Shown: positions 7,277-32,868 of the stretch, piece after piece
How positions within the stretch are numbered: position 1 is the first letter of the stretch
Layout of the letters: each line of letters begins with the position of its first letter
Assembly: GCA_020437385.1 (NCBI GenBank)
Contig: JAGQWL010000115.1
Coordinates: 1 to 32,868, forward strand
From: Bacteroidota bacterium
Lineage (GTDB): Bacteria; Bacteroidota; Rhodothermia; Rhodothermales; JABDKH01
DNA length: 32,868 nt
Reading direction: 5' to 3'
Program-made: the position numbers and the translations under genes
The notes under the pieces: model-generated
What the model was told of the DNA's origin: nothing
Databases searched by the model: none
The model's input: only the letters and a program-made list of their open reading frames with translations

Positions 7277-7577
7277 TCGGTCAACCGATAATATGCGGCT
7301 TCGTTTGACGTTGTAGTGTGGAAAAACGTTTCACGTTGTGGGGGCGCCGCGAGCTCGTCCGGACGCGAATTCCGGGATCTACAACTGAAGTTGCGAGTTA
7401 CGAGAGCTTCATAACGACGGCCGCTCGCGAGCGCTTCCGTATGACCGCCACTCACGAGAGCCTCATACTGACGGTCGCTAAAGAAAGCTCCAGCGATGAC
7501 CTCGCTCACGAAAGCTCCATCGCTGACGGTCGCCCGCGTGACCCGGTCGCGGTTGGAATCAAATCCTCTACGATTGT
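7277..7577. other. Divergent intergenic region between tesA and the ABC transporter
   Basis: This 301-bp gap must hold the promoters for both divergent units. I could not identify a convincing promoter pair on either strand. The centre is filled by five degenerate 27-bp tandem repeats (listed separately). A minus-strand open frame of 106 codons (7273-7593) crosses the whole gap. It ends in an ATGA overlap with the tesA start, but it consists mostly of the repeat and lacks a ribosome binding site, so I do not call it a gene. Confidence 0.6.
7398..7533. repeat. Five imperfect 27-bp tandem repeats
   Basis: Five consecutive units can be aligned: 7398-7424, 7425-7451, 7452-7478, 7479-7505 and 7506-7533 (the last is 28 bp). 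The shared pattern on the plus strand is roughly tcacGAgaGCtycaT followed by ctGACGGtCGC. The units are diverged and differ at several positions. Read on the minus strand, one frame gives a nine-residue period of the form S-x-x-x-x-E/G-A-L/F-V. The array lies between two divergent genes and is not inside a convincing coding region. Confidence 0.8.
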
Positions 7578-15258: not shown

Positions 15259-17493
15259 ATGCAAATGCTACGTACGTTCAGGATTCTTTCAATCGTGGTT
15301 CTTCTAACCGCGGTCCCGGTTCGGGCGCAGGAGTCAACTCTCACGCTCGACCGCGTTTTCGCGTCACGGGATTTTGCGTCCGAACGTTTCGGTCCTGCCC
15401 GATGGCTCGCAGCAGGCGATGAATACACAACGCTGGAGCGGGCTGACGGTGACGGTGTGGATATTGTCGCCTACGCCGCACGGTCCGGTGAACGGCGGGT
15501 ACTCGTACCGTCGTCCGCGCTGATTCCGGATGGCGCAGATCGGCCGCTTTCGATACAGGACTACACGTGGTCTACGGACGGCAGCAAACTGCTGATCTTC
15601 ACGAACTCGGCCAGGGTCTGGCGCGCGAACACGCGTGGCGATTACTGGGTCCTGGATCTTGATTCGAGACGCCTGAGCCAGCTTGGACGAAACTTTGAAC
15701 CGTCAACCCTAATGTTCGCAAAGTTCGATCCCACAGGCCAACGCGTCGCGTATGTTCACAAGAACAACATCTATGTCGAAAACCTGCACGACGGTACCCG
15801 AACGCAGTTGACGCGGGACGGGTCGACAACGATCATCAATGGAACATTTGATTGGGTTTACGAAGAGGAGTTTTCCCTGCGTGATGGTTTTCGGTGGAGT
15901 CCGGACGGAAGCAGGATTGCGTTCTGGCAGCTCGACGCGGAAGGTGTTCGCGATTATCTGCTCATTAACGATACTGATTCACTTTACTCCTTCGTAACGC
16001 CGATTCAGTACCCCAAAGCGGGCACGACAAATTCGGCGTCGCGCGTAGGTGTCGTCAGTGTGACCGGTGGTTCGGTCGACTGGTTCGAATTCTCTGACGA
16101 CCTGCGAAACAACTACGTCGCGCGGCTTTATTGGACGCCGGATTCACACGAGATTGTGGTGCAGCATCTCAACCGCCCGCAGAATCACCTGCAGGTGATC
16201 TTTACGGACACTCGGACCGGCGAAAAGAGAGTGGTGATTGATGAGCGCGACTCGGCGTGGTTGGATGTCGTGGACGATTTCACGTGGACAGCCGACGGTG
16301 ACGCGTTCACCTGGATGAGCGAACAAAATGGTTGGCGCGTTCTTTATCGTGTCGACCGCCAAACTGGAAAGCAGACGGCTTTAACGCCGGCAGACGAAGA
16401 CGTCATATCTATCGACGCGCTGGTCGGCGATCGGGTGTATTTCTCGGCATCGCCAGACAACCCAACGCAGCGCTACCTGTATGGTAACGTCGGGCCACGA
16501 GGAGCGGCAAAGCGGATTTCGCCGGAAGATCAGCCGGGCTACCACAACTATCAGATCTCCCCAAACGGACGATTCGCGATTCACACGTATTCCCGTTTTG
16601 ATGTACCGTCGACGATCGACCTTGTGTCGCTTCCGGACCATAAGCGGTTGCGCGTGCTCGTAGACAACGAACGCCTCAAGTCCGAGGTAGCGGATCTTAC
16701 ACGATCCCGGCCGGAGTTCTTCCGGGTGGACATCGGCGGAGACGTCGTGCTCGACGGCTGGATGATTAAGCCTAGCAGTTTTGATTCGGCGAAAAAGTAT
16801 CCGGTGATATTCTATGTCTATGGAGAACCGGCGGCGCAAACGGTTGTCGATCGCTGGGGAGGTTCGTCGCTACTCTATCACACGTTTCTTGCTGAGCAGG
16901 GGTACGTGGTGATCAGCGTAGACAACCGGGGGACACCCGCTCCTCGCGGTCGAGAATGGCGCAAGGTCATATACAAGAAGGTCGGCGTCGTCAATAGCGC
17001 CGATCAGGCTGCTGCGGCAGTCAAGATCTCTGAATGGCCGTTTGTAGACGCATCTCGGATCGGTGTCTGGGGTTGGAGTGGCGGCGGCTCGATGACGCTC
17101 AATCTCATGTTCCGCTATCCCGATATCTACAGCTCGGGCGTATCCGTAGCTCCGGTTCCGGACCAGCGTCTTTATGACACGATCTATCAGGAACGTTACT
17201 CTGGAAATCCGAATACCGACCCCGAATCGTACGAGCAGGGCTCACCGATTACATTTGCCGGACAGCTTGAGGGAAACCTGCTGATCATTCACGGAACCGG
17301 AGACGACAATGTCCACTTCCAGGGAACGGAACGTCTTGTCAACGAGCTGATCAAGGCAAACAAGTACTTCCAGATGCTTGCCTATCCCAACCGGACACAC
17401 GGGATTTACGAAGGACCTAACACAACACGCCATGTGTACGGATCGATGGTGCGCTTCTGGCTCGCAAATTTGCCTCCAGGTGGGGAGTCCTAG
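15259..17493 (+). CDS. S9 family dipeptidyl peptidase (DPP-IV type)
   Basis: This 744-residue secreted serine peptidase has a signal peptide ending near PVRAQE (residue 24). A beta-propeller follows, then an alpha/beta-hydrolase domain. The DPP-IV dipeptide-anchoring motif DWVYEEEF is at residues 198-205. The catalytic triad is Ser607 in GWSGGG, Asp682 in GTGDDNVH and His714 in RTHGI; the spacings 75 and 32 are close to those of mammalian DPP-IV. It should remove X-Pro or X-Ala dipeptides from peptides in the periplasm or outside. An alternative ATG at 15265 would drop two residues. Its stop overlaps the convergent T9SS-cargo gene by 4 bp. No Shine-Dalgarno sequence is obvious. Confidence 0.93.
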   Translation: MQMLRTFRILSIVVLLTAVPVRAQESTLTLDRVFASRDFASERFGPARWLAAGDEYTTLERADGDGVDIVAYAARSGERRVLVPSSALIPDGADRPLSIQDYTWSTDGSKLLIFTNSARVWRANTRGDYWVLDLDSRRLSQLGRNFEPSTLMFAKFDPTGQRVAYVHKNNIYVENLHDGTRTQLTRDGSTTIINGTFDWVYEEEFSLRDGFRWSPDGSRIAFWQLDAEGVRDYLLINDTDSLYSFVTPIQYPKAGTTNSASRVGVVSVTGGSVDWFEFSDDLRNNYVARLYWTPDSHEIVVQHLNRPQNHLQVIFTDTRTGEKRVVIDERDSAWLDVVDDFTWTADGDAFTWMSEQNGWRVLYRVDRQTGKQTALTPADEDVISIDALVGDRVYFSASPDNPTQRYLYGNVGPRGAAKRISPEDQPGYHNYQISPNGRFAIHTYSRFDVPSTIDLVSLPDHKRLRVLVDNERLKSEVADLTRSRPEFFRVDIGGDVVLDGWMIKPSSFDSAKKYPVIFYVYGEPAAQTVVDRWGGSSLLYHTFLAEQGYVVISVDNRGTPAPRGREWRKVIYKKVGVVNSADQAAAAVKISEWPFVDASRIGVWGWSGGGSMTLNLMFRYPDIYSSGVSVAPVPDQRLYDTIYQERYSGNPNTDPESYEQGSPITFAGQLEGNLLIIHGTGDDNVHFQGTERLVNELIKANKYFQMLAYPNRTHGIYEGPNTTRHVYGSMVRFWLANLPPGGES

Positions 17494-19406
17494 CGTCGAA
17501 CGACGAATGCCCTTGCAATCTGCCCGGTGCGCGTTGGATTCGCAAGCACGAGGAAGTAAACCCCGGTCGGCAAATCGTCGATATCGATTCGCAAAATTTT
17601 AGCCTGAGCCGCACTGGTCTTCACCAGCCGTCCCGTTGCATCAAACACGCTCACTGTCGGATCGACCGTCCGATCGAAAACGATGCCGGAGGTTTCGACA
17701 ACGAGTACGTTTTCGGCCGGGTTGGGATACAAAAGTACCGTCGGCGTTGGACGTTCGCTGACCTGCTCGATTCCGACGCTCGTGGTCCCCTTTATTCCAT
17801 AGAACAGTGGCGACGTACCTTCCGGTTCATCCGAATACTCGTACGTAATTGTATTCAGTGTTTCGTCTTGAACCCCACTTCCGCCGAAAATGGATCCGTC
17901 AGGCCCGATCGCCGGATGCGTCCACTCAAGGTGTCCGTCGACCTCATAGTGCCACATCGGCTCGAACTCGGTGCCGGTATCCCGAACGCCGAAATAGTAG
18001 CCGTTTCGTGCGTCCGAACCGTATCGTCCGCGAACACCAAAGTAGACGAAGCCCTCTTTGCTGATGGCAGGCGAATTGAGTCCACCTACCGCGTCATTGA
18101 TGACATCGGATGGATCAAATTCGTAGAGCACAGACCCAGTCTCGATATCGATGGCGTACAATCGGCCTGATTCAAGCTTGTTGAACGCCGGCGTTCCGAA
18201 GTTTCCGGTAGTGGCGATAAGGCGTATCGAGCGGTCGTCCACTTCACGGATGGCGAGTCCGTGAAGAAACTGCGCGCCGTCATCGAGAGCGGTTTCGTCG
18301 AGCGTCCAGAGGATCTCACCCATATCGTCCAGCGCGATCACTATCGGCACATTCAGGATCCCTTTCTGGTAGAGGCCGCCGATGTAGATGTTACCATTGC
18401 TTGCGACCGTCATTGTGACGGCGAACACTCGCGCATCGTTGTATTCGAGCTTGCGCTGCCACCGTAGGCGAGCGGCGTCGGTGAGCGTGGAATCAAGCGA
18501 GCTGTTGAGCGCCAGTACGCTCGCGGACGAATCACCCAGAAAGGTCGCGGCGTAAATCGTCTGGCCGTCCGGACTCAGCGCAGGTGAGGCATAGAACCTG
18601 TTGGGCAGGGAGGAGTCTGCCGGGTATCGCCACCGCAAGACACTGTCCGCACCGACAGCGTAGAACGCACTAGTTTCATACGGGCCCTCAGCCCACGTGC
18701 CGAACGCCACGCCCTCGGTTAAGGGAAGTGGTGCTGTTACGATTTCACCGCCGCCATCGGGGTCGTCCGGTTGTGCCGGATTGTAAGTCTGGAATCGCCA
18801 GCGGATGTTCCCCGTCTCGGGATCGATAGCGAAGAGACGACCGTCTCCACGGCCAACATACCAGAGGTTCGCTGCACGCGAAAACGCCGGTTGGCCCTCC
18901 ACCGTACCGTTGTAAAAAGTGACGTGGTAGTTGTTGAAAAGGCCACAGAAGAGGAAGTCTGTTGAGGTGTACTCTCGCTGGGGCATGTCGTAACATCTGT
19001 GTACCTTGTCGAGTGCGACCGGCCCACCCCAGTTCCAGGATCCGTCATGCGGAGACAAGCTGTAGACCTTTCCGTCGGATTTATCCCAGTATCGAACGTC
19101 GCGTCCCTGTTCGTCCTTTCTGAGCAAACCCCAGGAGCCAAAAACGACGTGATTGTCGACGACGGATGCACCGATGTTGAGTTCGAAGGCGAATGGAACA
19201 GATGTCGCCCATGATCGCGAGGCGTCGATGCTGACGATACCGTGGGAGCCGCTCTGTCCAGTACGTCGGACGTCGTGGCCCTTCATCGGCCAATCGTCCT
19301 GAGCGTACGAGGCCGAGGCGCAAAAGAATATCGACAGGAGCGAAAGCGCTAAGCGTTTGGAGTCCACGCTATTGGCACGTCGTGATAAACGGATGGTAGA
19401 GCTCAT
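17490..19406 (-). CDS. Secreted PQQ-type beta-propeller protein with T9SS sorting domain
   Basis: This 638-residue protein has a signal peptide (cleavage near SYAQ, residue 35). Its large central region carries repeated blades such as GRLFAIDPETGNIRWRFQT, VLALNSS and GRLYAIDIETGSVLYEF, typical of PQQ-like beta-propeller repeats. The last about 85 residues form a type A T9SS sorting domain: LLYPNPAENVLVVE, VSVFDATGRLVK, IDIDDLPTGVYFLVL and a basic end VVRR. It should therefore cross the outer membrane by the type IX system and be anchored or released. AAGGA five bases before the ATG supports the start. A divergent sigma factor gene begins 65 bp away. PQQ binding or enzyme activity is not shown by the sequence; a structural or binding role is equally possible. 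Confidence 0.88.
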   Translation of the reverse strand: MSSTIRLSRRANSVDSKRLALSLLSIFFCASASYAQDDWPMKGHDVRRTGQSGSHGIVSIDASRSWATSVPFAFELNIGASVVDNHVVFGSWGLLRKDEQGRDVRYWDKSDGKVYSLSPHDGSWNWGGPVALDKVHRCYDMPQREYTSTDFLFCGLFNNYHVTFYNGTVEGQPAFSRAANLWYVGRGDGRLFAIDPETGNIRWRFQTYNPAQPDDPDGGGEIVTAPLPLTEGVAFGTWAEGPYETSAFYAVGADSVLRWRYPADSSLPNRFYASPALSPDGQTIYAATFLGDSSASVLALNSSLDSTLTDAARLRWQRKLEYNDARVFAVTMTVASNGNIYIGGLYQKGILNVPIVIALDDMGEILWTLDETALDDGAQFLHGLAIREVDDRSIRLIATTGNFGTPAFNKLESGRLYAIDIETGSVLYEFDPSDVINDAVGGLNSPAISKEGFVYFGVRGRYGSDARNGYYFGVRDTGTEFEPMWHYEVDGHLEWTHPAIGPDGSIFGGSGVQDETLNTITYEYSDEPEGTSPLFYGIKGTTSVGIEQVSERPTPTVLLYPNPAENVLVVETSGIVFDRTVDPTVSVFDATGRLVKTSAAQAKILRIDIDDLPTGVYFLVLANPTRTGQIARAFVVRR

Positions 19407-19471: not shown

Positions 19472-20092
19472 ATGCCGATTCCTCAGATCGAACTGACAAT
19501 ACTGCTTCTTATCGTTCTGGCGCTTCAGGCGTCCGCAGACGATCCGGACCTGGCCCGTCGAATACGCGCCGGAGATCAAGAGGCCTTTAGAGAGTTCTTC
19601 GAGGCGCATTACGACGTGCTGTCGAGGTACCTGTCAGCGCAGGGGTTCGCCGCAATTGATTGTCGCGATGTCGTTCAGCGGGCATTTGTTGCGGTCTGGA
19701 CCGAGCGTCGCCGCATTCAGCCAGACAAGCCGCTTCGTGCGTATCTGTTCCGAATCGCAAGAAACGCAGCGCTCAACGACTTGCGCAAGGCCGCCCGGCA
19801 CTCGCCATTGAATGACGCCATTGACGTGGCTGATTCGAGTGAAGCGGCTGTATCGCAGGACGATGGCCCACTCAATTCGCAGATTGCGGCGGCTGTGTCC
19901 AACTTGTCGGCGCGCCGGCGAGAAGTGATTGAATTGTGTTTTCTCGGCGGCCTGACGTATGCAGAGGCTGCCGATGTACTGAACATCGCACGAAAGACTG
20001 TCGAGAATCAGGTCGGTCTCGCGCTGAAAGATCTTCGGTCTGCGCTTGGCTTGACAGGGTCGGGCGCGACAGTGCCGCGCGAAGGATCTTAG
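19472..20092 (+). CDS. ECF-type RNA polymerase sigma factor with hydrophobic N-terminus
   Basis: This 206-residue protein is a sigma-70 family ECF factor. Region 2 spans about residues 27-105 (RAGDQEAFREFFEAHYD, CRDVVQRAFVAVW, LRAYLFRIARNAALNDLRK). Region 4 spans about 135-190 (LSARRREVIELCFLGGLTYAEAADVLNIARKTVENQV). The first about 20 residues, MPIPQIELTILLLIVLALQA, are strongly hydrophobic, unusual for a sigma factor. No later ATG, GTG or TTG occurs before region 2, and no ribosome binding site precedes this ATG, so the true start is unsure. No anti-sigma (FecR-like) gene follows; the next gene is the giant surface protein, 166 bp downstream. It may control that gene or the divergent T9SS cargo, but this is inference. 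Confidence 0.87.
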   Translation: MPIPQIELTILLLIVLALQASADDPDLARRIRAGDQEAFREFFEAHYDVLSRYLSAQGFAAIDCRDVVQRAFVAVWTERRRIQPDKPLRAYLFRIARNAALNDLRKAARHSPLNDAIDVADSSEAAVSQDDGPLNSQIAAAVSNLSARRREVIELCFLGGLTYAEAADVLNIARKTVENQVGLALKDLRSALGLTGSGATVPREGS

Positions 20093-20182: not shown

Positions 20183-20258
20183 TCCTGTTAAGGGTCTGAA
20201 AAATAAGTGATTGGCACGAAACCCCTCTCGCATTGCAGGACGCGGGGCGGGGCGCCAT

Positions 20259-23200
20259 TTGTACACGTTGGAAAAACTTGCAACTCTGGTAATACACGAG
20301 CGACTGTCCGAACGATCTGTCCGCAGCCGTTCGCTCTTCGTCCTTTTCGCATTGGGCGCGGTCTGTGCTGCCTTACCGACAACGGTGTTCGGTCAGGACG
20401 TGCCGCTGTCAGCATTCCAGACTTTTGAAGGACGCGTTAACGAAACGTTGGCCGGGGGCACACTGCGTTCCCAGCCTAACAATGGTGGAGGCACCGATCC
20501 CGCGTGTCAACTCAATCCCACCTCAAGCGGAACGCTGACCTTGCCTTCCGGCGTCACGGTTGACGCGGCCTACCTGTACTGGTCGGGATCGGGTTCGACG
20601 ATCGACAATTCCGTGACCTTCAACGGCAGCACCGTAAATGCCACGCGGACCTTCACGGGTACCTACAACAACGGCGGGACACTGATGACCTGGTTCCAGG
20701 GTTTTGCCGATGTCACGACGCAAGTCGCCGGTACCGGGTCGGGGAGTTACACGCTTGGCGGGCTTACGGTGGATCAGACGGGTATCTACTGTACATCGAG
20801 CGCCGTGCTGGCAGGATGGGTTCTGCACGTCTTCTACACGGATCCCACCATCGTCGAATTCAGGCGAATCGGCATATGGGACGGGTTTGACGTCCTGAGA
20901 ACCACAAGCGGAAGCATCTCTACCACGGTGACGCTCAGCGGCCTTAACATTCAGGCGCCGGTGGATGGGACAATGACCAACGTCGTGTGGGAGGGAGATG
21001 ACACCATTACGTCCACCAACGAGTTTGTTCGGGTAAACTCCACCACGCTGCAATCCGGAGATCCTTTCGGCAGCACGAGCGACAACACGTCCGTTTCGCC
21101 ATCCTACGGAGTCGACATTGATCGACGGAATCTTTCTTCGGCCGTCACGGCCGGGCAGACCTCGGCCAACCTGACCGTCTCGACCTCGACGGACTTGATT
21201 ATCCTGTCGACGATCGTTGCCAACATCAAGTCGAACCTCGACCCGCGGGTAAGCAAGAGCTTTGAACCGGCGGTGATTCCGCAAAATGGAACGGCGTTGA
21301 TGGTCTTCGACGTCACGAACCCGAACATTGCGCCCTTGTCGGGGCTCACGTTTACGGATGCGCTTTCTGGATTCAATCTCGCCAGTGCCACGCTCGATCC
21401 GAGCAGCACCTGCACTGGAGTAACGTCGAATGCCGTCGTCGGTGGGACATCGTTCAACGTCCTTTCGGGCAACATCGCCGCGGAATCGACGTGTCGGATC
21501 GCCATCGCGGTCACGAGCAATACGGTTGGGACGCACTCCAACCAGATCACCAATCTTGATACGGCCGAGACACCGACTCCCGTCGCGTCGAATACTGCCA
21601 CGCTCACCGTCCAGCTGCCGCGTATCGGTGCCGCCAAGAATGCGGGCACGATTGTAGACAACGGCGATGGAACATTCACGGCGCCTGTCACCGTCGAGAT
21701 CGAAAACTTCGGAACCGAGAGTCTGTTCGATCTGGCTCTCGTGGATGACTTGACCGCGTTCGGGACGTACAACGGATCCACTGCGTTGGCGGCAGGTCAA
21801 TATTCTGTTTCCGCCCCCACGGTGTCAGGCACATCCGGCGGCGCGATTCTTTCCACGTCGAACGCATCGTTCGATGGATCCGGAGACACCGATCTAATCC
21901 TCACATCGTCTGGCGACATCCTGCCGCCAGGTGCGACCGCGACGCTTCAGTTCAGTATCACGTTCTTTCCGGCTGCGGGTCAGTCGTCGTACACGAATCA
22001 GGTTACCGCATCGGGCGATGTTATCGAGGACGGAACGGCCGACGGCCATACGAGCGATTTGTCAACAGATGGCACGGACGCCGACGGCGCCGACAACGAC
22101 GGTAACCCGGACGAGGCCGTCCCGACGCCAATCGTTGCACCGATTGCTCCCGTCATCGGCGCGGCAAAGCAGGCAGGTGTCGTAACGGATAATGGAGACG
22201 GTACGTTTACTGTGCCGTTCACGGTTGTCGTTGAGAACTTCGGCAATGCGCCGCTCTATGACATTCAGGTGTCCGACCTGCTCGCGGCGTTCGGTTCTTA
22301 CAATGGCGCGACAGCCTTGTCGCAAGGTGAGTACTCCGTTTCGGCACCTACAATAGGCAGCCTGACCGGCGGTGCTGCGCTTGCAAATCCGAATGCGGGC
22401 TTTGACGGAGAGGTTGACGCGAACCTTGTGTCCGTCACAGCCGGCGACATCCTTCCCATTGGCGCGACGGCGGCGATCAACTTCTCGGTCACCTTCTTTC
22501 CTGCGGCGGGCGTATCGAGCTTCGCCAATCAGGCCAACGCATCCGGCGACCTTACTGAGAACGGTACGTCTGACGGTGACGCGACGGACCAGTCAACCGA
22601 CGGTGCAGATCCTGACGGGACGGATGCGGATGACAATCCGGATGAGGCCGTCGCAACCCCGGTATCCGTCAATCTGAATCCAGTAATTGGATCGGCGAAG
22701 GACGCTGGAGCAGTCGTAGACAACGGCGATGGCACGTTTACAGTGCCGTTCACCATAACGCTCGAGAATTTCGGGAGTGCGCCGCTTTACGATATCCAGA
22801 TAACGGACGATCTGTCGTCATTCGGCTCCTTCCTTGCGGCTGGTGCGCTGTCACCAGGCGAGTACCGCGTCAGCGCACCAACGATCGGCACCTTGACAGG
22901 CGGTGCCTTGGTTGCGAGTACGAACGGTTCATTCGACGGAGAATCCGACGGTGACCTTGTCAGCGTGACATCCGGCGACATCCTGCCAATCGGTGCTACC
23001 GCGCAGATCGGATTTTCCGTCACATTCTTCCCGGCGGCCGGCGTGTCGAACTTCGCGAACCAGGCGACAGCCTCGGGGGATCTATCAGAGAACGGCACAG
23101 CGGATGGCGATGCAACCGACCTCTCAACGGACGGAGCCGATCCGGACGGGGTAGATGGTGACGGCAATCCGGACGAAAGCGTCGCCACTCCGGTCACCGT

Positions 23201-26200
23201 GTCTTTTGCGCCCGTGATCGGCGCCGCCAAGGCAGCCGGCACCGTCGTCGATAATGGCGACGGGACTTTTACGGTGCCGTTTACGGTCGTCGTCGAAAAT
23301 TTCGGTAATGCGCCCCTGTTCGATTTGCAGGTCAGCGACGACCTCTCGTCGTTCGGAAGCTTCAATGGAACGCCTCCGCTTGCGCAGGGCGAGTACAGCG
23401 TGAGTTCGATGTCGATTGGAACGCTCTCGGGTGGCGCAAACCTTGGCGCCGTAAATGCGTCGTTTGACGGATCGTCTGATCAACGGTTAGTTCAGCACAC
23501 GAGCGGCGATGTTCTGCCGATCGGCGCGACGGCCAGCATCAATTTTAGTCTCACGTTCGTTCCCGACGCGGGTGTAAGCAGCTTTTCGAATCAGGCAGTC
23601 GCGTCCGGCGATATCGTCGAGGACGGAAATGAGGACGGGGACGCGACGGATACGTCGACGGACGGGACCGACCCGGATGGATCCGACAACGACGACACTC
23701 CGGATGAAAGTTCTACTACACCGGTTTCCGTAACGCTGATCCCGGGCCTCGGCGTTGCAAAAGAAGCCGGTTCCGTCGTGGACAATGGCGACGGGACGTT
23801 TACGGTGCCGTTTACGGTGGTCGTCGAAAACTTCGGCAACGTCCCGCTGTTCGATCTTCGGCTAAGCGATATTCTGAATTCATTCGGAACGTACAACGCT
23901 GCTCCCACGCTGAGTCAGGGCGACTACGACGTAACAACGCCGGTCATCGGAACGCTCACGGGCGGTGCGGCGATCGCATCGGCGAATGCCGGATTCAACG
24001 GTGACACCGACACCGACCTGATCTCCCTGACTTCGGGAGACGTTCTACCGGTATCGGCAACCGCGGCAATATCGTTCTCGGTGACGTTCTTCCCGTCCGC
24101 TGGAATATCGTCGTTCTCAAATCAGGCAACGGGATCAGGTGATGTCGCCGAGAACGGGGTGGCGGACTCCGATGTCACGGATCTTTCCACCGATGGTGCG
24201 GATCCGGATGGATCGGACAACGACGACAACCCGGATGAGGCAACGCCGACCCCCGTTACGATATCCCTGACGCCGGTGATCGGTGCCGCGAAGCAGGCTG
24301 GTGCCGTCACAGATAACGGTGATGGAACCTTCACAGTGCCGTTTACAGTGGTCGTCGAAAACTTCGGAAACGTTCCGCTCTTCGACATTCAGGTCTCGGA
24401 CGACGTGACGGGTTTCGGGACGTTCAACGGGAGTACGGCGCTTTCGCAGGGAGAATACACGGTTGGAACTGTTACCGTTGGTTCGCTGACAGGTGGTGCC
24501 GTGGTGGGATCGGCAAATGCCGGATTTGACGGTTCGGCGGATCAGGCTTTGATCACCCTGTCAGCCGGCGACGTGTTACCGATTGGAGCGACCGCGCAAC
24601 TCGGATTCAATGTAACGTTCTTCCCGTCGGCAGGGCTCTCGTCGTTCGTTAACCAGGCCATCGCTTCCGGCGATGAAACCGAGGATGGAACGGCCGATGG
24701 GGACGCAACTGACGTGTCGACCGACGGCAGCGACCCCGACGGCACGGACAACGACGACACCCCTGATGAGAGCGTCGCAACGCCAGTATCCGTCTCGTTG
24801 GCGCCGCAAATCGGATCGTCGAAATCTGCGGGCGGCGTGACGGACAATGGAGACGGGACGTTCACCGTTCCATTCGTCGTTGCGGTCGAGAATTTCGGAA
24901 ACACGCCTCTGTACGACCTGCAGGTTAGTGATAATCTTGCGTCGTTTGGCGCCTACAACGGAGTGTCTGCGCTTGGCCCAGGGCAGTACACCGTCAGTGC
25001 TCCTGCCATCGGTGGTCTGACCGGTGGGACCGTTCTGGCCAGCGCCAATCCCACTTTTGACGGCTCCTCTGACCTGAATCTTCTTGCGCTGTCGCCCGGC
25101 GACGTACTGCCGATCGGCGGAACAGGGCAGATCAGTTTCAGTGTGACGTTTTTTCCGGCGGCAGGTAACACCAGCTTCGCTAATCAGGCGACGGCATCCG
25201 GAGATACTTCGGAAGACGGGAATCCAGACGGCGATACGGTCGACTTGTCAACGGACGGGAACGACCCGGACGGATCGGACAATGACGGCAATCCGGACGA
25301 GAGCACTGCCACACCGGTAACGGTAACGTTGAATCCAGTTATCGGTGCCGCGAAGCAGGCCGGTGCTGTTGTGGATAACTCGGACGGGACGTTCACGGTG
25401 CCTTTCGCAGTGGTGGTGGAGAATTTCGGCAACGTCCCGCTTCACGATGTTCAGGTAACGGACCTCCTGTCGTCGTTCGGAACGTTCAACGGTATCAGTG
25501 CGCTGGGGCCCGGCCAGTACAATGTCACGACGCCTACTGTCTCTGGCCTGTCCGGCGGCGCAGTCATTGCATCGGCTAATTCTTCGTATGACGGTGCGTC
25601 GGATTCCGACCTTCTTGTTGTCACGGCTGGAGACGTGCTTCCAATCGGTGCCACCGCACAGATATCTTTCTCGGTCACGTTCTTCCCCGATGCGGGCGCA
25701 AGCAACTTTTCAAACCAGGCCAACGCGTCGGCTGACATCGTCGAAGACGGAAACCCTGACGGAGATACGACCGACTTGTCGACGGACGGGATTGATCCAG
25801 ACGGATCGGATGGCGACGACAATCCCGACGAGTCGACTGCTACGCCAGTCTCGGTCACGTTAAGTCCGGTAATCGGTGCGGCGAAGGCCGCCGGCGCAGT
25901 CGTCGACAACGGTGACGGATCGTTCACTGTCCCGATCTCGATCCTCATCGAAAACTTCGGGAATGCACCACTTCACGACCTGCAGGTAACCGATAATCTT
26001 TCTGCGTTCGGCAGCTACAATGGTGTGTCGGCCTTAGCGCAGGGAGAGTACGCTGTATCCGTTCCGACGGTTGGTACAACTACCGGTGGTGCGAGTATCT
26101 CGTCGGCGAATGCAAACTTCGATGGAGAAGGTGATCAGGCGCTCCTGGTGGTTTCGGCAGGAGATGTTCTTCCCGTTGGCTCGACCGCTGAAGTGACATT

Positions 26201-29200
26201 CTCCGTGACATTCGTTCCGAGTGCGGGGAATACGAGTTTTGTCAACCAGGCGACGGGTTCAGGGGATCTTGTTGAGAACGGTGTATCCGACGGGGACACG
26301 ACGGACTTGTCCACCGACGGCTCGGACGCTGACGGCAGCGACAACGATGACAACCCGGATGAGTTTGTCCCGACAACAATAACTGTTTCGCTTTCGCCGG
26401 TTGTCGGCTTGGCGAAGCAGGCCGGATCTGTCACCGACAACGGCGACGGTACGTTTTCCGTTGGCTTCTCGATTGTTGCAGAGAATTTCGGGAATGTACC
26501 GTTGTACGATCTGCAGCTTGTCGATGACCTCGCCTCCTTTGGTTCGTTTAACGGACCCGGTCCGCTTGCCCAGGGTGAATATTCAGTATCCGTTCCCGTC
26601 ATCGGGACGCTTTCAGGTGGTGCAGTCGTATCGGGCGTCAATGGCGTGTTCGACGGGTCGGCCGATCATAATCTACTCGCATTTACCCCGGGAGATGTCT
26701 TGCCCATTGGCGCAACCGCAGCGGTTTCGTTTACCGTAACGTTCTTTCCCTCGGCTGGAGCGACCTCATTCAGCAATCAGGCAGTTGCCACTGGCGACCT
26801 CACGGAGGATGGAAACGCGGACGGTGACACCAGCGACGATTCGGTTGATGGCACTGACCCGGACGGAACCGACAACGACGACAATCCGGACGAAAGCGGA
26901 ACGACCACGGTGACGGTCTCGCTTGATCCGGTCATTGGCGTAGCCAAGTCGGCCGGCGCTGTCGTCGATAACGGAGACGGAACCTTCGCCGTGCCGTTTA
27001 CACTGACGGTTGAGAATTTCGGAAACGTCCCGCTCTTCGATCTCGCCTTGTCCGATGACTTGTCGGCCTTCGGTTTGTTTAATGGCGCGACTGCACTGGT
27101 TCAGGGCGAGTATGCGGTGTCGGCTCCTGTGCTGGGAACTACGACGGGAGGGGCGGTCATCTCCGGAACCAACGTTGCGTTCGATGGTGCTGCCGACCAG
27201 CGGATAGTCGTCGCCACCGGAGGAGATGTCCTGCCCGTTGGCGCGACGTATCAGGTGTCGTTCACGGTTACGTTCAATCCATCCGCAGGCAATACGAGCT
27301 ATACGAATCAGGTCAGCGCCGGAGGCGACGTCGTCGAGAATGGGTCGTCCGATCTGGATACGCAAGACCTTTCTACTGACGGATTGGATCCCGACGGTAC
27401 GGATGGTGATGACACGCCGGACGAGAGCGTTCCGACCACGGTCACGATTTCGTTGTCGCCGCAAATTGGTGCGGCGAAAGAAGCCGGCGCAATTGTAGAC
27501 AACGGAGATGGCTCGTTTACTGTGCCGTTCTCGATCACCATCGAGAATTTCGGCAACGTGCCTCTTTTTGACCTGCAAGTTACGGACGATCTGGCATCCT
27601 TCGGTTCGTACAACGGGACGACGACCTTGTCTCCGGGTGAGTACTCGGTTTCAGCGCCCGTAATTGGATCTCTTGGCGGCGGTGCTGTCCTGGCAGCGGC
27701 GAGCGCGGCCTTCGACGGTTCAGGAAATCAGACGCTGCTGGTTCCGACGGCCGGAGACGTTTTGCCAATTGGCGCAACGGCCGAGGTCACGTTCACGGTC
27801 ACGTTCTTTCCCGCCGGAGGAGCGACAAGTTTCGTCAACCAGGCAAGCGCATCAGGGGATGTCACGGAAGATTCGAATCCTGACGGCGATACGACTGATT
27901 TGTCGACAGACGGAGCGGACCCCGATGGCAGTGACGCGGATGACAATCCGGACGAGGCGACGCCAACACCAGTGACGATTACGCTCGGGCCGTCGATTGG
28001 ACTCGCGAAGCAGGCGGGCACGGTTGTCGATAATGGTGACGGAACATTCCGGGTACCGTTCACGATGGTTGTCGAGAATTTTGGGAATGCCCCATTGTAT
28101 GACCTTCAGATTTCGGATGACCTCACGGCGTTCGGAACGTTCAACGGTTCGACGGCGCTGAGTGCCGGCGAGTACACAGTGGCGGCGCCGGTCGTCGATG
28201 GCGTGACGGGTGGGGCAGTTGTCACCGCCGTCAACGGCTCTTTTAACGGTTCCGCCGATCAGCGAGTCCTTGTCGCTGCCGGCGGCGACCAGTTGCCCGT
28301 TGGTGCGACAGCGCAGTTGTCATTCGACCTTGTCTTCTTCCCGTCGTCCGGGATCTCGAGCTACGTCAATCAGGCAGTCGGCTCGGGAGACGTTGTCGAA
28401 AATGGTACGGTGGACGGTGACGCGACAGACGTTTCTACAGACGGCGCTGATCCGGATGGAACGGACGGTGACGACATCCCGGACGAGTCCGCGCCAACAC
28501 CTGTAACCGTTACGCTGTCGCCGATCGTTGGTGTGGCAAAAGAGGCCGGGACGGTGACCGATAACGGAGACGGCACGTTTACGATTCCGTTCACGCTGCG
28601 CGTGGAGAACTTTGGGAATGTCGCGCTCTTTGACGTGCAACTGTCGGACAATCTTGGATCTTTCGGAACATACAACGGCTCAACCGCACTGTCCCCTGGA
28701 CAGTACTCGGTTACGGCGCCGACAATAGGGTCGGTGTCAAGCGGTAGTGTGCTCGCGAACGCCAATTCGAATTTCGACGGCACGTCTGACTCCAACCTGC
28801 TGGTAATAACGGCCGGTGACGTGTTGGCGATTGGCGGCACGGCAAACGTTCAGTTCTCCGTGACCGTGTTCCCGTCCGCGGGCAACACGGCATTCACGAA
28901 TCAGGCGGTCGGTACGGGCGATCTGGTCGAGAACGGCGTGTCAGATGGCGATGCGTCCGACCAATCAACCGACGGCGCAGATCCGGACGGAAACGACAAC
29001 GATGATACGCCCGATGAAAACGAAGTCACCAACGTCTCGGTGTCACTGGCACCGGTGATCGGCGTCGCGAAGCGGGCGGGTGCTGTCACGGATAACGGTG
29101 ACGGATCGTTCTCTGTTACCTTCACGATAACGGCCGAGAATTTTGGGAATGCTCCGCTGTTCGACGTGCAGCTAACGGACGATCTGTCGTCATTCGGTAG

Positions 29201-32200
29201 CTACAATGCGGGGCCAACGCTGGCTCAAGGTCAATACACGGTTTCGAGTCTATCAATCGGAAGCCAGGGTGGCGGAACGGTGCTATCCGCCGTCAATCCC
29301 GCATTTGACGGAGAAACGGACCAGGCAATTCTGGCCCTGACCCCCGGCGATGTCCTGCCGGTTGGCGGCACAGCGGATGCCTCGTTCGTGTTGACTTTCA
29401 TCCCGCCCGCAGGCATCTCAGCATTCTCAAATCAAGCGGCAGCGTCAGGAGATCTCACCGAGAACGGAGCGGCCGACGGTGACGCAACAGATCTTTCCAC
29501 TGACGGGACAGATCCGGACGGCACGGACGGCGATGACAGTCCGGATGAAAATGTCCCGACTCCAGTTTCTGTCTCGCTCGCGCCCGTGGTCGGCGCGGCG
29601 AAGCAGGCAGGCGCGGTTGCCGACAATGGTGACGGAACGTTCACCGTACCATTTAGTGTAGCCATCGAGAATTTCGGAAACGCCCCGCTATTTGATCTTC
29701 AGGTCACCGACGATCTCGCTTCGTTTGGTACCTATAACGGAACGACTGCCTTGTCGCAGGGTGAGTACGCTGTTTCCAGTCCGTCTATTGCAGGACTCGC
29801 TGGGGGAACCGTACTGTCTTCGGCAAATGCCTCGTTTGACGGTTCGGCTGACACCCAACTTCTCGTTGTAACGCCCGGCGACGTCCTGCCCGTCGGCGGC
29901 ACCGGTCAAATCTCATTCGCCGTCACCTTCTATCCGAGCGGCGGCGCTTCGTCGTTCAGTAACCAGGCTGTCGCATCCGGCGACCTGACTCAAGACGGCA
30001 ACCCTGACGGTGATACGACGGATTTGTCGACAGACGGAGCCGATCCCGATGGGACGGACGCTGACGACAATCCCGATGAGGCTACACCGACGCCGGTGTC
30101 GATCACGCTTGGACCAGTTATCGGTGCGGCGAAACAAGCGGGTGCCGTGAGCGACAATGGAGATGGAACGTTCACCGTTTCGTTTACCGTCACAATCGAG
30201 AATTTTGGTAATGCCCCGCTTTTCGACCTTCAGGTGTCAGACGATCTGGCCTCCTTCGGCAGTTTCAACGGTGCGACGGCGTTGGCGCAGGGCGAGTACG
30301 TGGTGTCGTCCGGTCCGGTCGTCGGCAGCCTCAATGGAGGCGCGGCAATTGGTGCCGCCAACACTGGCTACAATGGTGAGTCGGATCAACAGCTGCTCCT
30401 GGTGTCGCCGGGCGATGTCCTTCCAATTGCCGCAACGGCCCAAATCCAGTTCGAGATAACGTTCTATCCGACGGGCGGGAATACGCTGTTTGTAAATCAG
30501 GCGGTCGCGTCTGGCGATCTCGTGGAAAACGGTAGTTCGGATGGCGACGCGACAGACAACTCGACATCTGGAGCCGACCCTGACGGCGCAGACGGTGACG
30601 ACAATCCTGATGAAGGCGATCCGACGACTGTGTCGATCACTTTCGGACCGTCGATCGGTGCGGCGAAGCAGGCTGGGACGGTCGTCGACAACGGTAACGG
30701 TACCTTCAGCGTCCCGTTCACCGTTAGTATCGAGAACTTTGGCAATGCACCGCTTTTCGACATCCAGGTTAGTGATGCGCTGACTTCGTTCGGGTCGTAT
30801 AACGGTACCACGGCACTGTCGCAGGGTGAATATTCGGTCACGAGCCCGGTCGTCGTCGGCCTGTCCGCCGGCGCCATCCTTGCCGGTCCGAACGCGTCGT
30901 TTGACGGTGAATCTGTTAGTGAGCTGCTCGTGCCGACGGCAGGCGATGTGCTTCCGGTTTCCGGAACGGCCCAGATCTCATTCACGGTCACGTTCTTCCC
31001 GTCGGCCGGCAATACGTCGTTCGTGAATCAGGCGATCGCGTCTGGCGATCTCGTCGAAGACGGCACGCCCGACGGTGACGCGACCGATTTGTCGACCGAT
31101 GGCGCTGATCCAGACGGTAGTGATGCTGACGGAATCCCGGACGAGTCCGATCCGACGCCCGTATCGGTTGCGATAAATCCCCTCGTGGGTGCCGCCAAGA
31201 TGGCCGGACCCGTGGTTGACAATGGAGATGGATCGTTCACGGTTCCGTTCTCAATTGTCATCGAGAACTTCGGAAATGCGCCCCTCTTTGACATACAGAT
31301 AACTGACGATCTCGGCTCGTTTGGTGCATTCAACGGAGTCGGTCCATTGGCACCAGGCGAATATGTGGTAAGTGCGCCGGTGATCTTGAACGCTACAGCC
31401 GGAGCTGTCATTGGGGCCATAAATACATCGTTTGACGGTGAGTCGGACATGGCGCTGTTGTCGCTGACCGCCGGAGACCTTCTGCCCATAGGGGCGACGG
31501 TCACAGTCGATTTTGGTGTCACGTTCTTCCCGGCCGCGACAGTCTCGTCGTTCGTCAATCAGGCGACCGTAGCGGGCGACCTGGTCGAAAATGGAACGGT
31601 AGATGGTGATGCGACCGACCTATCGACCGATGGCACCGATCCTGATGGAACCGATGCTGACGGGATTCCTGACGAGGCGGATCCGACGCCTGTCAGCGTC
31701 TCGCTGACGCCGGTCGTGGGCGCTGCCAAGCTGGCGGGCACACCAACCGATAATGGCGACGGAACCTTCACGATTCCGTTCACCATAACGATCGAGAATT
31801 TCGGAAACGCACCGCTGTTTGATGTTCAGGCGACGGACGATCTCAGTTCGTTTGGAAGCCACAACGGGACCACGCCACTATCGGCCGGCGAGTACAACGT
31901 AACAGCGCCGACCGTGTCATCGTTGACTGGAGGTGCCATTCTGTCGACGGGCAATGCCGGCTTCGACGGGTCGATCGACCAAACCTTGATCGCGTTGACA
32001 GGGGGCGATACACTCCCGATTGGTTCGGTTGCGGAATTGTCCTTTGCCGTGACGGTGTTTCCGCCCGTCGGAATCGACACCTTCTCTAATCAGGCTACGG
32101 CCAGTGCCGACCTGACCGAGAATGGAGTCGCCGACGGAGACGCCACCGACCTGTCGACCAATGGTTCGGATCCCGATGGGAGTGACAACGATGACAACCC

Positions 32201-32868
32201 GGACGAGAATACTCCGACGCCGGTCTCCGTGACGTTGGTTCCACGCATCGGTGTCGCAAAGGCCGCGGGCGCCGTCGTCGACAATGCGGACGGAACATTC
32301 ACCGTTCCATTCACGATTCGAATCGAGAACTACGGAAACGCGTCACTTTACGACCTGCGGCTGGCGGACGATCTCTCTTCGTTTGGTTCGTTCAACGGAG
32401 TTGGAGTGCTGGCTCAGGGTGAGTACCGCGTGTCGGCGCCTGTTGTTGGCGCGGTGTCCGGCGGTGCGGTGCTGGCGACCGGGAACGCAGGCTTTGACGG
32501 CTCATCCGATATCGATCTCGTGCAGCAGACTGCCGGAGACGTTCTGCCAATTGGCGGGTCCATTCAAGTTTCGTTCAGCGTCACAATGGTTCCGGCAGCG
32601 GGCGTCAGCAACTTCCTGAATCAGGCCGTAGCGTACGGAGATCTGACGGAGGACGGTTCGTCGGACGGCGATGCCTCCGATCAATCGACTGATGGCGCCG
32701 ACCCTGACGGAAGCGATGCGGACAACAATCCTGACGAGAATCTGCCGACGCCAGTGAGTGTGAGTCTGACGCCGGTGATCGGCTCGGCGAAGGCGGCAGG
32801 TCCGGTTACCGACAACGGTGATGGCACGTTCACCGTGCCGATTTCCATCCTGATTCAGAATTATGGAA
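20259..32868 (+). CDS. Giant repetitive surface protein (5' part; runs off the window)
   Basis: One frame is open for over 4,200 codons to the window edge without a stop. No ATG lies between the sigma factor and the signal peptide. In-frame TTG codons at 20211, 20259 and 20268 are the candidates; 20259 is listed because GGGG lies six bases upstream. A signal peptide (RSRSLFVLFALGAV...TTVFG) is cleaved near residue 45. Residues about 46-327 form a unique domain starting with AFQTFEGRVNE and containing YLYWSGSGS. Residues about 328-455 match the DUF7933-like adhesin module (VSKSFEPAVIPQNG; LSGLTFTDALSG). From residue 456 come the 177-residue repeats (listed separately). Cysteines were seen only before the repeats. 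The domain type is that of DUF11-like surface and gliding-related proteins of Bacteroidota. Adhesion or a cell-surface filament is likely. The C-terminus, probably with a sorting signal, is outside the window. Confidence 0.9.
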   Translation, partial: MYTLEKLATLVIHERLSERSVRSRSLFVLFALGAVCAALPTTVFGQDVPLSAFQTFEGRVNETLAGGTLRSQPNNGGGTDPACQLNPTSSGTLTLPSGVTVDAAYLYWSGSGSTIDNSVTFNGSTVNATRTFTGTYNNGGTLMTWFQGFADVTTQVAGTGSGSYTLGGLTVDQTGIYCTSSAVLAGWVLHVFYTDPTIVEFRRIGIWDGFDVLRTTSGSISTTVTLSGLNIQAPVDGTMTNVVWEGDDTITSTNEFVRVNSTTLQSGDPFGSTSDNTSVSPSYGVDIDRRNLSSAVTAGQTSANLTVSTSTDLIILSTIVANIKSNLDPRVSKSFEPAVIPQNGTALMVFDVTNPNIAPLSGLTFTDALSGFNLASATLDPSSTCTGVTSNAVVGGTSFNVLSGNIAAESTCRIAIAVTSNTVGTHSNQITNLDTAETPTPVASNTATLTVQLPRIGAAKNAGTIVDNGDGTFTAPVTVEIENFGTESLFDLALVDDLTAFGTYNGSTALAAGQYSVSAPTVSGTSGGAILSTSNASFDGSGDTDLILTSSGDILPPGATATLQFSITFFPAAGQSSYTNQVTASGDVIEDGTADGHTSDLSTDGTDADGADNDGNPDEAVPTPIVAPIAPVIGAAKQAGVVTDNGDGTFTVPFTVVVENFGNAPLYDIQVSDLLAAFGSYNGATALSQGEYSVSAPTIGSLTGGAALANPNAGFDGEVDANLVSVTAGDILPIGATAAINFSVTFFPAAGVSSFANQANASGDLTENGTSDGDATDQSTDGADPDGTDADDNPDEAVATPVSVNLNPVIGSAKDAGAVVDNGDGTFTVPFTITLENFGSAPLYDIQITDDLSSFGSFLAAGALSPGEYRVSAPTIGTLTGGALVASTNGSFDGESDGDLVSVTSGDILPIGATAQIGFSVTFFPAAGVSNFANQATASGDLSENGTADGDATDLSTDGADPDGVDGDGNPDESVATPVTVSFAPVIGAAKAAGTVVDNGDGTFTVPFTVVVENFGNAPLFDLQVSDDLSSFGSFNGTPPLAQGEYSVSSMSIGTLSGGANLGAVNASFDGSSDQRLVQHTSGDVLPIGATASINFSLTFVPDAGVSSFSNQAVASGDIVEDGNEDGDATDTSTDGTDPDGSDNDDTPDESSTTPVSVTLIPGLGVAKEAGSVVDNGDGTFTVPFTVVVENFGNVPLFDLRLSDILNSFGTYNAAPTLSQGDYDVTTPVIGTLTGGAAIASANAGFNGDTDTDLISLTSGDVLPVSATAAISFSVTFFPSAGISSFSNQATGSGDVAENGVADSDVTDLSTDGADPDGSDNDDNPDEATPTPVTISLTPVIGAAKQAGAVTDNGDGTFTVPFTVVVENFGNVPLFDIQVSDDVTGFGTFNGSTALSQGEYTVGTVTVGSLTGGAVVGSANAGFDGSADQALITLSAGDVLPIGATAQLGFNVTFFPSAGLSSFVNQAIASGDETEDGTADGDATDVSTDGSDPDGTDNDDTPDESVATPVSVSLAPQIGSSKSAGGVTDNGDGTFTVPFVVAVENFGNTPLYDLQVSDNLASFGAYNGVSALGPGQYTVSAPAIGGLTGGTVLASANPTFDGSSDLNLLALSPGDVLPIGGTGQISFSVTFFPAAGNTSFANQATASGDTSEDGNPDGDTVDLSTDGNDPDGSDNDGNPDESTATPVTVTLNPVIGAAKQAGAVVDNSDGTFTVPFAVVVENFGNVPLHDVQVTDLLSSFGTFNGISALGPGQYNVTTPTVSGLSGGAVIASANSSYDGASDSDLLVVTAGDVLPIGATAQISFSVTFFPDAGASNFSNQANASADIVEDGNPDGDTTDLSTDGIDPDGSDGDDNPDESTATPVSVTLSPVIGAAKAAGAVVDNGDGSFTVPISILIENFGNAPLHDLQVTDNLSAFGSYNGVSALAQGEYAVSVPTVGTTTGGASISSANANFDGEGDQALLVVSAGDVLPVGSTAEVTFSVTFVPSAGNTSFVNQATGSGDLVENGVSDGDTTDLSTDGSDADGSDNDDNPDEFVPTTITVSLSPVVGLAKQAGSVTDNGDGTFSVGFSIVAENFGNVPLYDLQLVDDLASFGSFNGPGPLAQGEYSVSVPVIGTLSGGAVVSGVNGVFDGSADHNLLAFTPGDVLPIGATAAVSFTVTFFPSAGATSFSNQAVATGDLTEDGNADGDTSDDSVDGTDPDGTDNDDNPDESGTTTVTVSLDPVIGVAKSAGAVVDNGDGTFAVPFTLTVENFGNVPLFDLALSDDLSAFGLFNGATALVQGEYAVSAPVLGTTTGGAVISGTNVAFDGAADQRIVVATGGDVLPVGATYQVSFTVTFNPSAGNTSYTNQVSAGGDVVENGSSDLDTQDLSTDGLDPDGTDGDDTPDESVPTTVTISLSPQIGAAKEAGAIVDNGDGSFTVPFSITIENFGNVPLFDLQVTDDLASFGSYNGTTTLSPGEYSVSAPVIGSLGGGAVLAAASAAFDGSGNQTLLVPTAGDVLPIGATAEVTFTVTFFPAGGATSFVNQASASGDVTEDSNPDGDTTDLSTDGADPDGSDADDNPDEATPTPVTITLGPSIGLAKQAGTVVDNGDGTFRVPFTMVVENFGNAPLYDLQISDDLTAFGTFNGSTALSAGEYTVAAPVVDGVTGGAVVTAVNGSFNGSADQRVLVAAGGDQLPVGATAQLSFDLVFFPSSGISSYVNQAVGSGDVVENGTVDGDATDVSTDGADPDGTDGDDIPDESAPTPVTVTLSPIVGVAKEAGTVTDNGDGTFTIPFTLRVENFGNVALFDVQLSDNLGSFGTYNGSTALSPGQYSVTAPTIGSVSSGSVLANANSNFDGTSDSNLLVITAGDVLAIGGTANVQFSVTVFPSAGNTAFTNQAVGTGDLVENGVSDGDASDQSTDGADPDGNDNDDTPDENEVTNVSVSLAPVIGVAKRAGAVTDNGDGSFSVTFTITAENFGNAPLFDVQLTDDLSSFGSYNAGPTLAQGQYTVSSLSIGSQGGGTVLSAVNPAFDGETDQAILALTPGDVLPVGGTADASFVLTFIPPAGISAFSNQAAASGDLTENGAADGDATDLSTDGTDPDGTDGDDSPDENVPTPVSVSLAPVVGAAKQAGAVADNGDGTFTVPFSVAIENFGNAPLFDLQVTDDLASFGTYNGTTALSQGEYAVSSPSIAGLAGGTVLSSANASFDGSADTQLLVVTPGDVLPVGGTGQISFAVTFYPSGGASSFSNQAVASGDLTQDGNPDGDTTDLSTDGADPDGTDADDNPDEATPTPVSITLGPVIGAAKQAGAVSDNGDGTFTVSFTVTIENFGNAPLFDLQVSDDLASFGSFNGATALAQGEYVVSSGPVVGSLNGGAAIGAANTGYNGESDQQLLLVSPGDVLPIAATAQIQFEITFYPTGGNTLFVNQAVASGDLVENGSSDGDATDNSTSGADPDGADGDDNPDEGDPTTVSITFGPSIGAAKQAGTVVDNGNGTFSVPFTVSIENFGNAPLFDIQVSDALTSFGSYNGTTALSQGEYSVTSPVVVGLSAGAILAGPNASFDGESVSELLVPTAGDVLPVSGTAQISFTVTFFPSAGNTSFVNQAIASGDLVEDGTPDGDATDLSTDGADPDGSDADGIPDESDPTPVSVAINPLVGAAKMAGPVVDNGDGSFTVPFSIVIENFGNAPLFDIQITDDLGSFGAFNGVGPLAPGEYVVSAPVILNATAGAVIGAINTSFDGESDMALLSLTAGDLLPIGATVTVDFGVTFFPAATVSSFVNQATVAGDLVENGTVDGDATDLSTDGTDPDGTDADGIPDEADPTPVSVSLTPVVGAAKLAGTPTDNGDGTFTIPFTITIENFGNAPLFDVQATDDLSSFGSHNGTTPLSAGEYNVTAPTVSSLTGGAILSTGNAGFDGSIDQTLIALTGGDTLPIGSVAELSFAVTVFPPVGIDTFSNQATASADLTENGVADGDATDLSTNGSDPDGSDNDDNPDENTPTPVSVTLVPRIGVAKAAGAVVDNADGTFTVPFTIRIENYGNASLYDLRLADDLSSFGSFNGVGVLAQGEYRVSAPVVGAVSGGAVLATGNAGFDGSSDIDLVQQTAGDVLPIGGSIQVSFSVTMVPAAGVSNFLNQAVAYGDLTEDGSSDGDASDQSTDGADPDGSDADNNPDENLPTPVSVSLTPVIGSAKAAGPVTDNGDGTFTVPISILIQNYG
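21624..32868 (+). repeat. Array of 21 complete plus one partial 177-codon repeats
   Basis: The copies start at 21624, 22155, 22686, 23217, 23748, 24279, 24810, 25341, 25872, 26403, 26934, 27465, 27996, 28527, 29058, 29589, 30120, 30654, 31185, 31716, 32247 and 32778 (cut by the edge). All spacings are 531 bp except 30120-30654, which is 534. Each unit runs in order: IGxAKxAG; DNGDGTFTVPF; ENFGNAPLFDLQ; DDLxxFGxxNG; a GEYxVSAP strand; NxxFDG; GDxLPxGATA; FxVTFFPxAG; NQAxASGD; an Asp-rich stretch (DGDxTDxSTDGxDPDGxDxD, then NPDE); and a TPVxVxLxPV linker. The first about 130 residues look like an immunoglobulin-like beta-sandwich of the DUF11 type. The Asp-rich part resembles calcium-binding DxDxDG loops. 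The first copy is the most divergent. The copies differ clearly at the DNA level. Confidence 0.95.

Follow-up and report, generated by a model that had tools for sequence, protein, structure and literature searches.

The window, a 32,868-bp stretch that forms the complete contig C464 of a Bacteroidota genome assembled in 488 contigs, holds most of a protein of about 7,400 residues, and the tandem array in it probably serves as the stalk of a giant fibrillar adhesin, anchored in the outer membrane, in which unit length is held by selection on stack geometry. In the proposed mechanism, about 29 CnaA-like CLIPPER/CLIPPER_2 Ig domains would follow each other head to tail with short linkers, each stapled internally by one Lys5-Asn125 isopeptide bond with Asp41 as the probable catalytic residue, and each made stiffer by an Asp-rich loop, a probable Ca2+ site. 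The acidic stalk (about -22 per unit) would project an N-terminal head from the cell by perhaps 100 nm or more, judging from typical Ig-domain dimensions, while its C-terminal end would be held by an OmpA-type domain and, last in the chain, an outer-membrane beta-barrel. The main stack would descend from an old burst of duplication with no detectable recombination since, and purifying selection would tolerate substitutions and remove indels, which would keep rise and rotation per unit constant and the stack geometry regular.

The giant gene and its repeat array

The giant gene is read from the plus strand and continues past the end of the contig. Its frame (20211-32868) is open over 4,219 codons, free of stops and frameshifts. 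The features of this part of the window are as follows:

19472-20092, plus strand: ECF-type sigma factor gene directly upstream of the giant gene (Pfam Sigma70_r2, Sigma70_r4_2 and Sigma70_ECF)
20259-32868, plus strand: 5' part of the giant stalk gene, a stop-free open frame that runs off the contig end
20259 or 20268, plus strand: TTG start codon of the giant stalk gene, with no ATG near
20259-20396, plus strand: probable signal peptide (…RSRSLFVLFALGAVCAALPTTVFGQ), read by eye from the sequence
20397-21242, plus strand: N-terminal head domain of about 280 aa, a candidate binding domain, with no Pfam match there
21243-21611, plus strand: DUF7933 domain (Pfam PF25564, aa 345-467 of the frame from 20211)
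21624-30119, plus strand: units 1-16, each exactly 177 aa (531 bp)
30120-30653, plus strand: unit 17, 178 aa, with one Gly inserted (VVSSGPVV)
30654-32777, plus strand: units 18-21, each exactly 177 aa
32778-32868, plus strand: start of unit 22, completed to exactly 177 aa with contig C166

The array comprises 21 complete units in one frame (21624-32777); one has 178 residues and the other 20 have 177. Successive copies of each of three independent anchors (DNG.GTF, ENFG and NQ[AV]) lie 177 residues apart, except for one interval of 178. The coordinates, the count and the one 534-bp spacing among 531-bp spacings reported by the initial annotation were all reproduced. The 177-residue units of the window align with each other without gaps, and therefore no compensating indels are hidden behind the constant spacing. 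Pairwise identity among the 21 units is 62% for protein (51–75%) and 62% for DNA (56–68%); 44 of the 177 positions are invariant and 25 vary freely. Tandem Repeats Finder, with a longest period of 500 bp, missed the array.

The array extends beyond the window. The description of 21 copies and the start of another is right for the window and an underestimate for the protein, since a search of the same genome's contigs recovered further units on contig C166 (6,764 bp). The first bases of C166 are the last 9 bp of the window, ATTATGGAA, in register, and joining the two (L006:1-449) gives a unit 22 of exactly 177 residues. The units that follow on C166 measure 177, 176, 177, 177, 178 and ~175 residues, and after them C166 encodes between one and three DUF11-type domains of greater divergence, followed by an SdrD_B-like segment and an OmpA domain. 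The end of C166 and the start of contig C268 (L129:1-378) share a 378-bp overlap in which 7 bases differ, which suggests that the population assembled here contained strain variants. C268 encodes the last 947 residues, with the C-terminal end ...GWFLNAIGSF. Through these two joins, which we infer from overlap (9 bp and 378 bp) and register, the full protein from the TTG at 20259 would appear to have ~7,400 residues and ~29 units across three contigs.

At the N-terminal end, the upstream ECF-type sigma factor may be a candidate regulator of the giant gene. Homologs of the head occur at 38–42% identity in the genomes G003, G013 and G041, and no Pfam adhesion domain was found in the head. Open frames of ~7,600 and 11,600 residues with DUF11-like units in mixed spacing were also observed in relatives of the same order (G007:C18, G007:C14, G031:C48 and G031:C39).

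Domain family, predicted isopeptide bond and fold of the units

The units are Ig-like domains of the DUF11/DUF7507 (CLIPPER) type, an already known kind of repeat to which they add new members. In Pfam searches with the whole protein, the DUF7507 profile scored 180.9 bits (cut-off 27; E = 6e-54) and the DUF11 profile 97.8 bits (cut-off 24.6; E = 7e-28), both above the curated cut-offs, and the NCBI profile TIGR01451 also matches the units. The families DUF11 (PF01345) and DUF7507 (PF24346) were renamed CLIPPER and CLIPPER_2 in 2025, when a Lys-Asn isopeptide bond beside a presumed catalytic Asp, conferring heat and protease resistance, was shown in a CLIPPER domain of an OmpA-anchored Acinetobacter adhesin (PMC12617251).

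The corresponding triad is present in the array. Lys5, Asp41 and Asn125, assigned from conservation and order along the chain and not from coordinates, are invariant in the window units, and among the readable cases in 127 units of relatives Lys5 was retained in 102 of 103, Asp or Glu41 in all 126 and Asn125 in 122 of 126. Units 1-22 contain exactly one lysine each, always Lys5, as well as zero cysteines and almost no arginine, with a net charge of about -22 per unit; the other proteins of the window have 0.9–5% lysine and a near-neutral charge. Seven unit-like stretches on C166 likewise have one lysine each, and one-lysine units recur in arrays from other phyla (L080, 20/20; L045, 12/12; L035, 8/8; L093, 6/6). 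Taken together, these patterns are strong indirect evidence that the predicted Lys5-Asn125 isopeptide bond forms in the units. One lysine per unit also offers a simple sequence signature for isopeptide stalks. Neighboring domains of multidomain proteins are usually less than 50% identical (PMC8201768), and adjacent units here are 64% identical; the strong uniform negative charge and the predicted isopeptide staple may lower misfolding between such like neighbors.

An AlphaFold2 model of units 15-16, built on an 84-row alignment that, like the one for the C-terminal part, included rows from retrieved genome loci, reached a mean pLDDT of 96.8 and a pTM of 0.88. The modeled unit is almost all-beta, with six residues between the last strand and the first strand of the next unit, and the Asp-rich loop at unit positions ~145-164 is confidently placed, which would fit a metal (Ca2+) binding loop. 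For a two-domain chain, so high a pTM points to units held in a defined orientation to each other, and together with the pLDDT and the short linker it lends indirect support to the stiff rod that had been proposed. Foldseek matches of the two-unit model are Ig-like, including integrin legs, ClfB, FnBPA, CNA, FimA and AgI/II C-terminal domains; the MSCRAMM, AgI/II and pilin matches place the unit among Ig-like beta-sandwiches at the level of fold class, with CnaA topology as a putative assignment. No significant sequence relatives of the unit, the head or the barrel were found in the PDB.

The C-terminal end and related systems

The C-terminus consists of an OmpA domain followed by ~900 barrel-like residues with a C-terminal Phe. 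The last 899 residues matched no Pfam family, and the last ~900 residues look like an outer-membrane beta-barrel in the predicted structure. The AlphaFold2 model of this part is of medium quality (pLDDT 66) and shows dozens of long antiparallel strands; on this medium-quality model, Foldseek returned LptD, BtuB, SlpA, SprA and other outer-membrane barrels with low TM-scores. By sequence, the family of the last 899 residues occurs at 39–46% identity in G003 and G004 (same family) and in MAGs labeled Pseudomonadales (L040), Pseudomonadaceae (L045, incomplete) and Krumholzibacteriota (L093), and at 28–38% in Proteobacteria plasmid records. The members on plasmid records bear the annotations "TonB-dependent receptor", "outer membrane protein transport protein" and "hypothetical protein", names that look unreliable.

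The barrel-like part is associated with stalks in two arrangements. In all the fusions retrieved it comes after DUF11-type units in the same ORF, whereas in Eleftheria terrae the stalk (DUF11 and SdrD_B) and the OmpA-plus-barrel protein are encoded by two adjacent genes, and separate adjacent stalk and barrel frames were also found in Croceibacterium atlanticum and in a Vibrio campbellii record. Because the two parts are fused in one lineage and adjacent in another, the barrel is suggested to work with the stalk as its anchor or exporter. The frames in C. atlanticum (L158:4814-14640) and V. campbellii (L159) are adjacent or overlapping, and the OmpA match of L158 covers the 98-position profile only as far as position 68; these split frames may reflect a gene that is naturally divided or else a frameshift.

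A rather unlikely but substantial alternative is that the C-terminal barrel is a translocator, which would make the protein a giant autotransporter-like or two-partner-like system and not merely an anchored stalk. Such self-export would agree with the fusion of the barrel-like family downstream of DUF11-type units in several lineages and with the separate barrel gene beside the stalk gene in Eleftheria terrae. The OmpA domain, however, sits between the stalk and the barrel-like part, which argues against a translocator, as do the lack of a solved relative by sequence and the many kinds of barrel among the Foldseek matches. Because OmpA domains are normally periplasmic, this position also counts against the main reading, in which the stalk would reach the outside. 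Export as a type IX secretion substrate was rejected, as the C-terminus has no sorting tail and no Por_Secre_tail domain was found on the C268 frame. The genome itself probably has type IX secretion, because a beta-propeller (PQQ_2) protein encoded elsewhere in the window (17490-19406, minus strand) carries Por_Secre_tail.

The architecture of an anchored fibrillar adhesin is the preferred reading of the domain order, with a signal-like N-terminus (by eye), a head, a tandem stalk, and an OmpA and barrel-like end on linked contigs. The likely signal peptide, the Ig-like stalk domains known from fibrillar adhesins and the C-terminal end support the initial annotation's suggestion of a surface protein reaching far beyond the cell. 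The fused barrel is apparently an undescribed, or at best little-described, outer-membrane end; our literature search found no record joining DUF11, OmpA and "giant", nor one describing this architecture.

Known systems share parts of this design. The CLIPPER example of PDB 9IFR, the Acinetobacter silvestris adhesin B9T28_05395 (PMC12617251), has the same profile family, Ig-like fold, Lys-Asp-Asn triad and tandem stalk, with an OmpA domain near the C-terminus. In contrast to its domain of ~105–120 aa, the unit described here has 177 aa at a fixed length, is cysteine-free, carries an Asp-rich inter-strand loop and occurs in far more copies, and a C-terminal barrel follows the OmpA domain. A 6,059-aa array from a MAG labeled Rickettsiales (L028, JAHDCD010000002.1) has the same order of stalk, DUF11, SdrD_B-like and OmpA-like parts but differs in its variable spacing, in having several lysines in many units and in lacking a barrel after the OmpA domain. 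The Eleftheria terrae pair (WP_301261129.1 and WP_301261128.1) also combines a DUF11/SdrD_B stalk with an OmpA domain and the barrel-like family (32% identical over the full 899 aa), although it uses two adjacent genes in place of one fused gene and another stalk composition. Periscope proteins (PMC8201768) similarly project an N-terminal head on tandem folded stalk domains whose neighbors are more than 50% identical. Their repeats have nearly the same DNA sequence and a variable copy number, whereas the DNA of the present units has diverged and the array looks frozen; identities of 51–75% in protein and 56–68% in DNA lie below the level of at least 80% that defines Periscope repeats.

Constancy of unit length and origin of the stack

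The strict length is unusual, and the length lock belongs to the main stack. We measured unit spacing in ~50 arrays at loci from public genomes. The closest long homolog, L028 (best unit 52% identical), has spacings of 174–199 residues, and L080 has spacings of 161–178. At 55–70% identity, window unit pairs carry 0.07–0.12 gaps per pair, compared with 0.6–1.9 in other arrays at the same identity. Scaled on the unit tree, the window has one distinct indel per ~1,000 substitutions (0.10 per 100), whereas the pooled rate reaches 1.14 per 100 for similarly diverged arrays and 2.2 per 100 when every array is included; at these rates 11 and 22 indels would be expected in the window (Poisson P = 1.4e-4 and 6e-9, respectively). 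The deficit over all arrays has P ~0.006 once array-to-array differences are allowed for. A genome-wide low indel rate was ruled out: the base-proximal units of the same protein on C166 carry 9 indels in ~659 substitutions (1.4 per 100), and therefore the genome is not simply indel-poor. The length lock is not unique to the window array, as two arrays of 159-aa units, L035 and that of G012 (L019/L160), show similar regularity, although they are short.

Length and register are thus held in the main stack, but the initial annotation's suggestion that every residue position matters is too strong, considering the freely varying positions and the indels in L028 and the base-proximal units. Plain folding constraint, under which a 177-aa domain would tolerate almost no length change for the sake of single-domain stability and not of stack geometry, is an unlikely explanation of the lock. 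In its favor are the invariant quarter of positions and the possibility that metal binding in the Asp-rich loops is strict. Relatives that share the fold and the triad nevertheless vary by tens of residues in the two arrays above, with indels in many loops, and the base-proximal units of the same protein have accumulated indels as well; the Ig-like fold itself does not demand a strict length.

In-register recombination cannot hold the length today. The initial annotation had offered, as a second possibility, that copies were spread by recombination in register and then drifted; this stands as an ancient burst and fails for recent time. Four-fold sites in conserved codons agree between units at 0.322, compared with 0.309 ± 0.007 for random draws with the same codon usage. 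The longest exact in-register run between units is 25 bp, which is within the random range, and no conversion tracts were found among the units. Protein identity is nearly flat with distance along the array (0.61–0.64), except for the single most distant pair, ruling out higher-order repeats with a period of two or more. The unit tree is an unresolved star with long end branches, in which a single unit from G001 (another genus, same family) falls inside, fitting an old burst of duplication and then long independent drift without homogenization. In-register unequal crossing-over or gene conversion that kept the units equal, with drift only afterwards, is therefore quite improbable: the window units do form one group against other long arrays in the tree, so they arose by duplication, but the randomized four-fold sites, the missing long shared DNA tracts, the star tree and the only slightly greater likeness of neighbors leave an ancient burst alone. 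The saturated synonymous sites, the absence of conversion tracts and the scarcely greater similarity of neighbors than of distant units exclude recent recombination or gene conversion in register and favor selection that preserves length. An array made or lengthened by mis-assembly has a negligible likelihood even though the assembly is fragmented and the contig ends within the array, because each unit is unique and too diverged, and exact in-register repeats are too short, for ordinary assembly to duplicate or collapse units, and the frame is open throughout.

The array provides a natural set in which stalk-domain length is held while sequence drifts, beside homologous arrays with drifting length. 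Such a set lets selection on domain-to-domain geometry, and not on fold stability alone, be tested in giant adhesins. The protein further connects the recently named CLIPPER stalks with their possible anchor or exporter, a widespread outer-membrane family whose members now carry the labels "TonB-dependent receptor" or "hypothetical". The distinctive features of the protein are the length lock, the frozen non-recombining array, the single lysine per unit and the fused barrel. A bolder and doubtful proposal is that these features mark a register-locked class of stalks, namely acidic isopeptide rods with the cross-link lysine as sole lysine, whose length would be selected for exact rise and rotation, perhaps because neighboring rods are packed laterally in register, and which would be exported and anchored by their own fused barrel in an autotransporter-like manner, with a two-gene pair in other phyla.

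Several minor observations accompany the array. A 602-aa protein of another genus (L133:5711-7516, G001:C109) has one lone window-type unit followed by a type IX sorting tail, and this unit lies within the window's star in the unit tree. In L080, from a Pirellulaceae MAG, alternating units group in the tree (02/04/06/08 and 03/05/07/09), which suggests that, in contrast to the window, a block of two units was duplicated there recently. Additionally, the window contains two short 27-bp tandem repeat arrays at 7400-7527, within or beside small possible coding frames.
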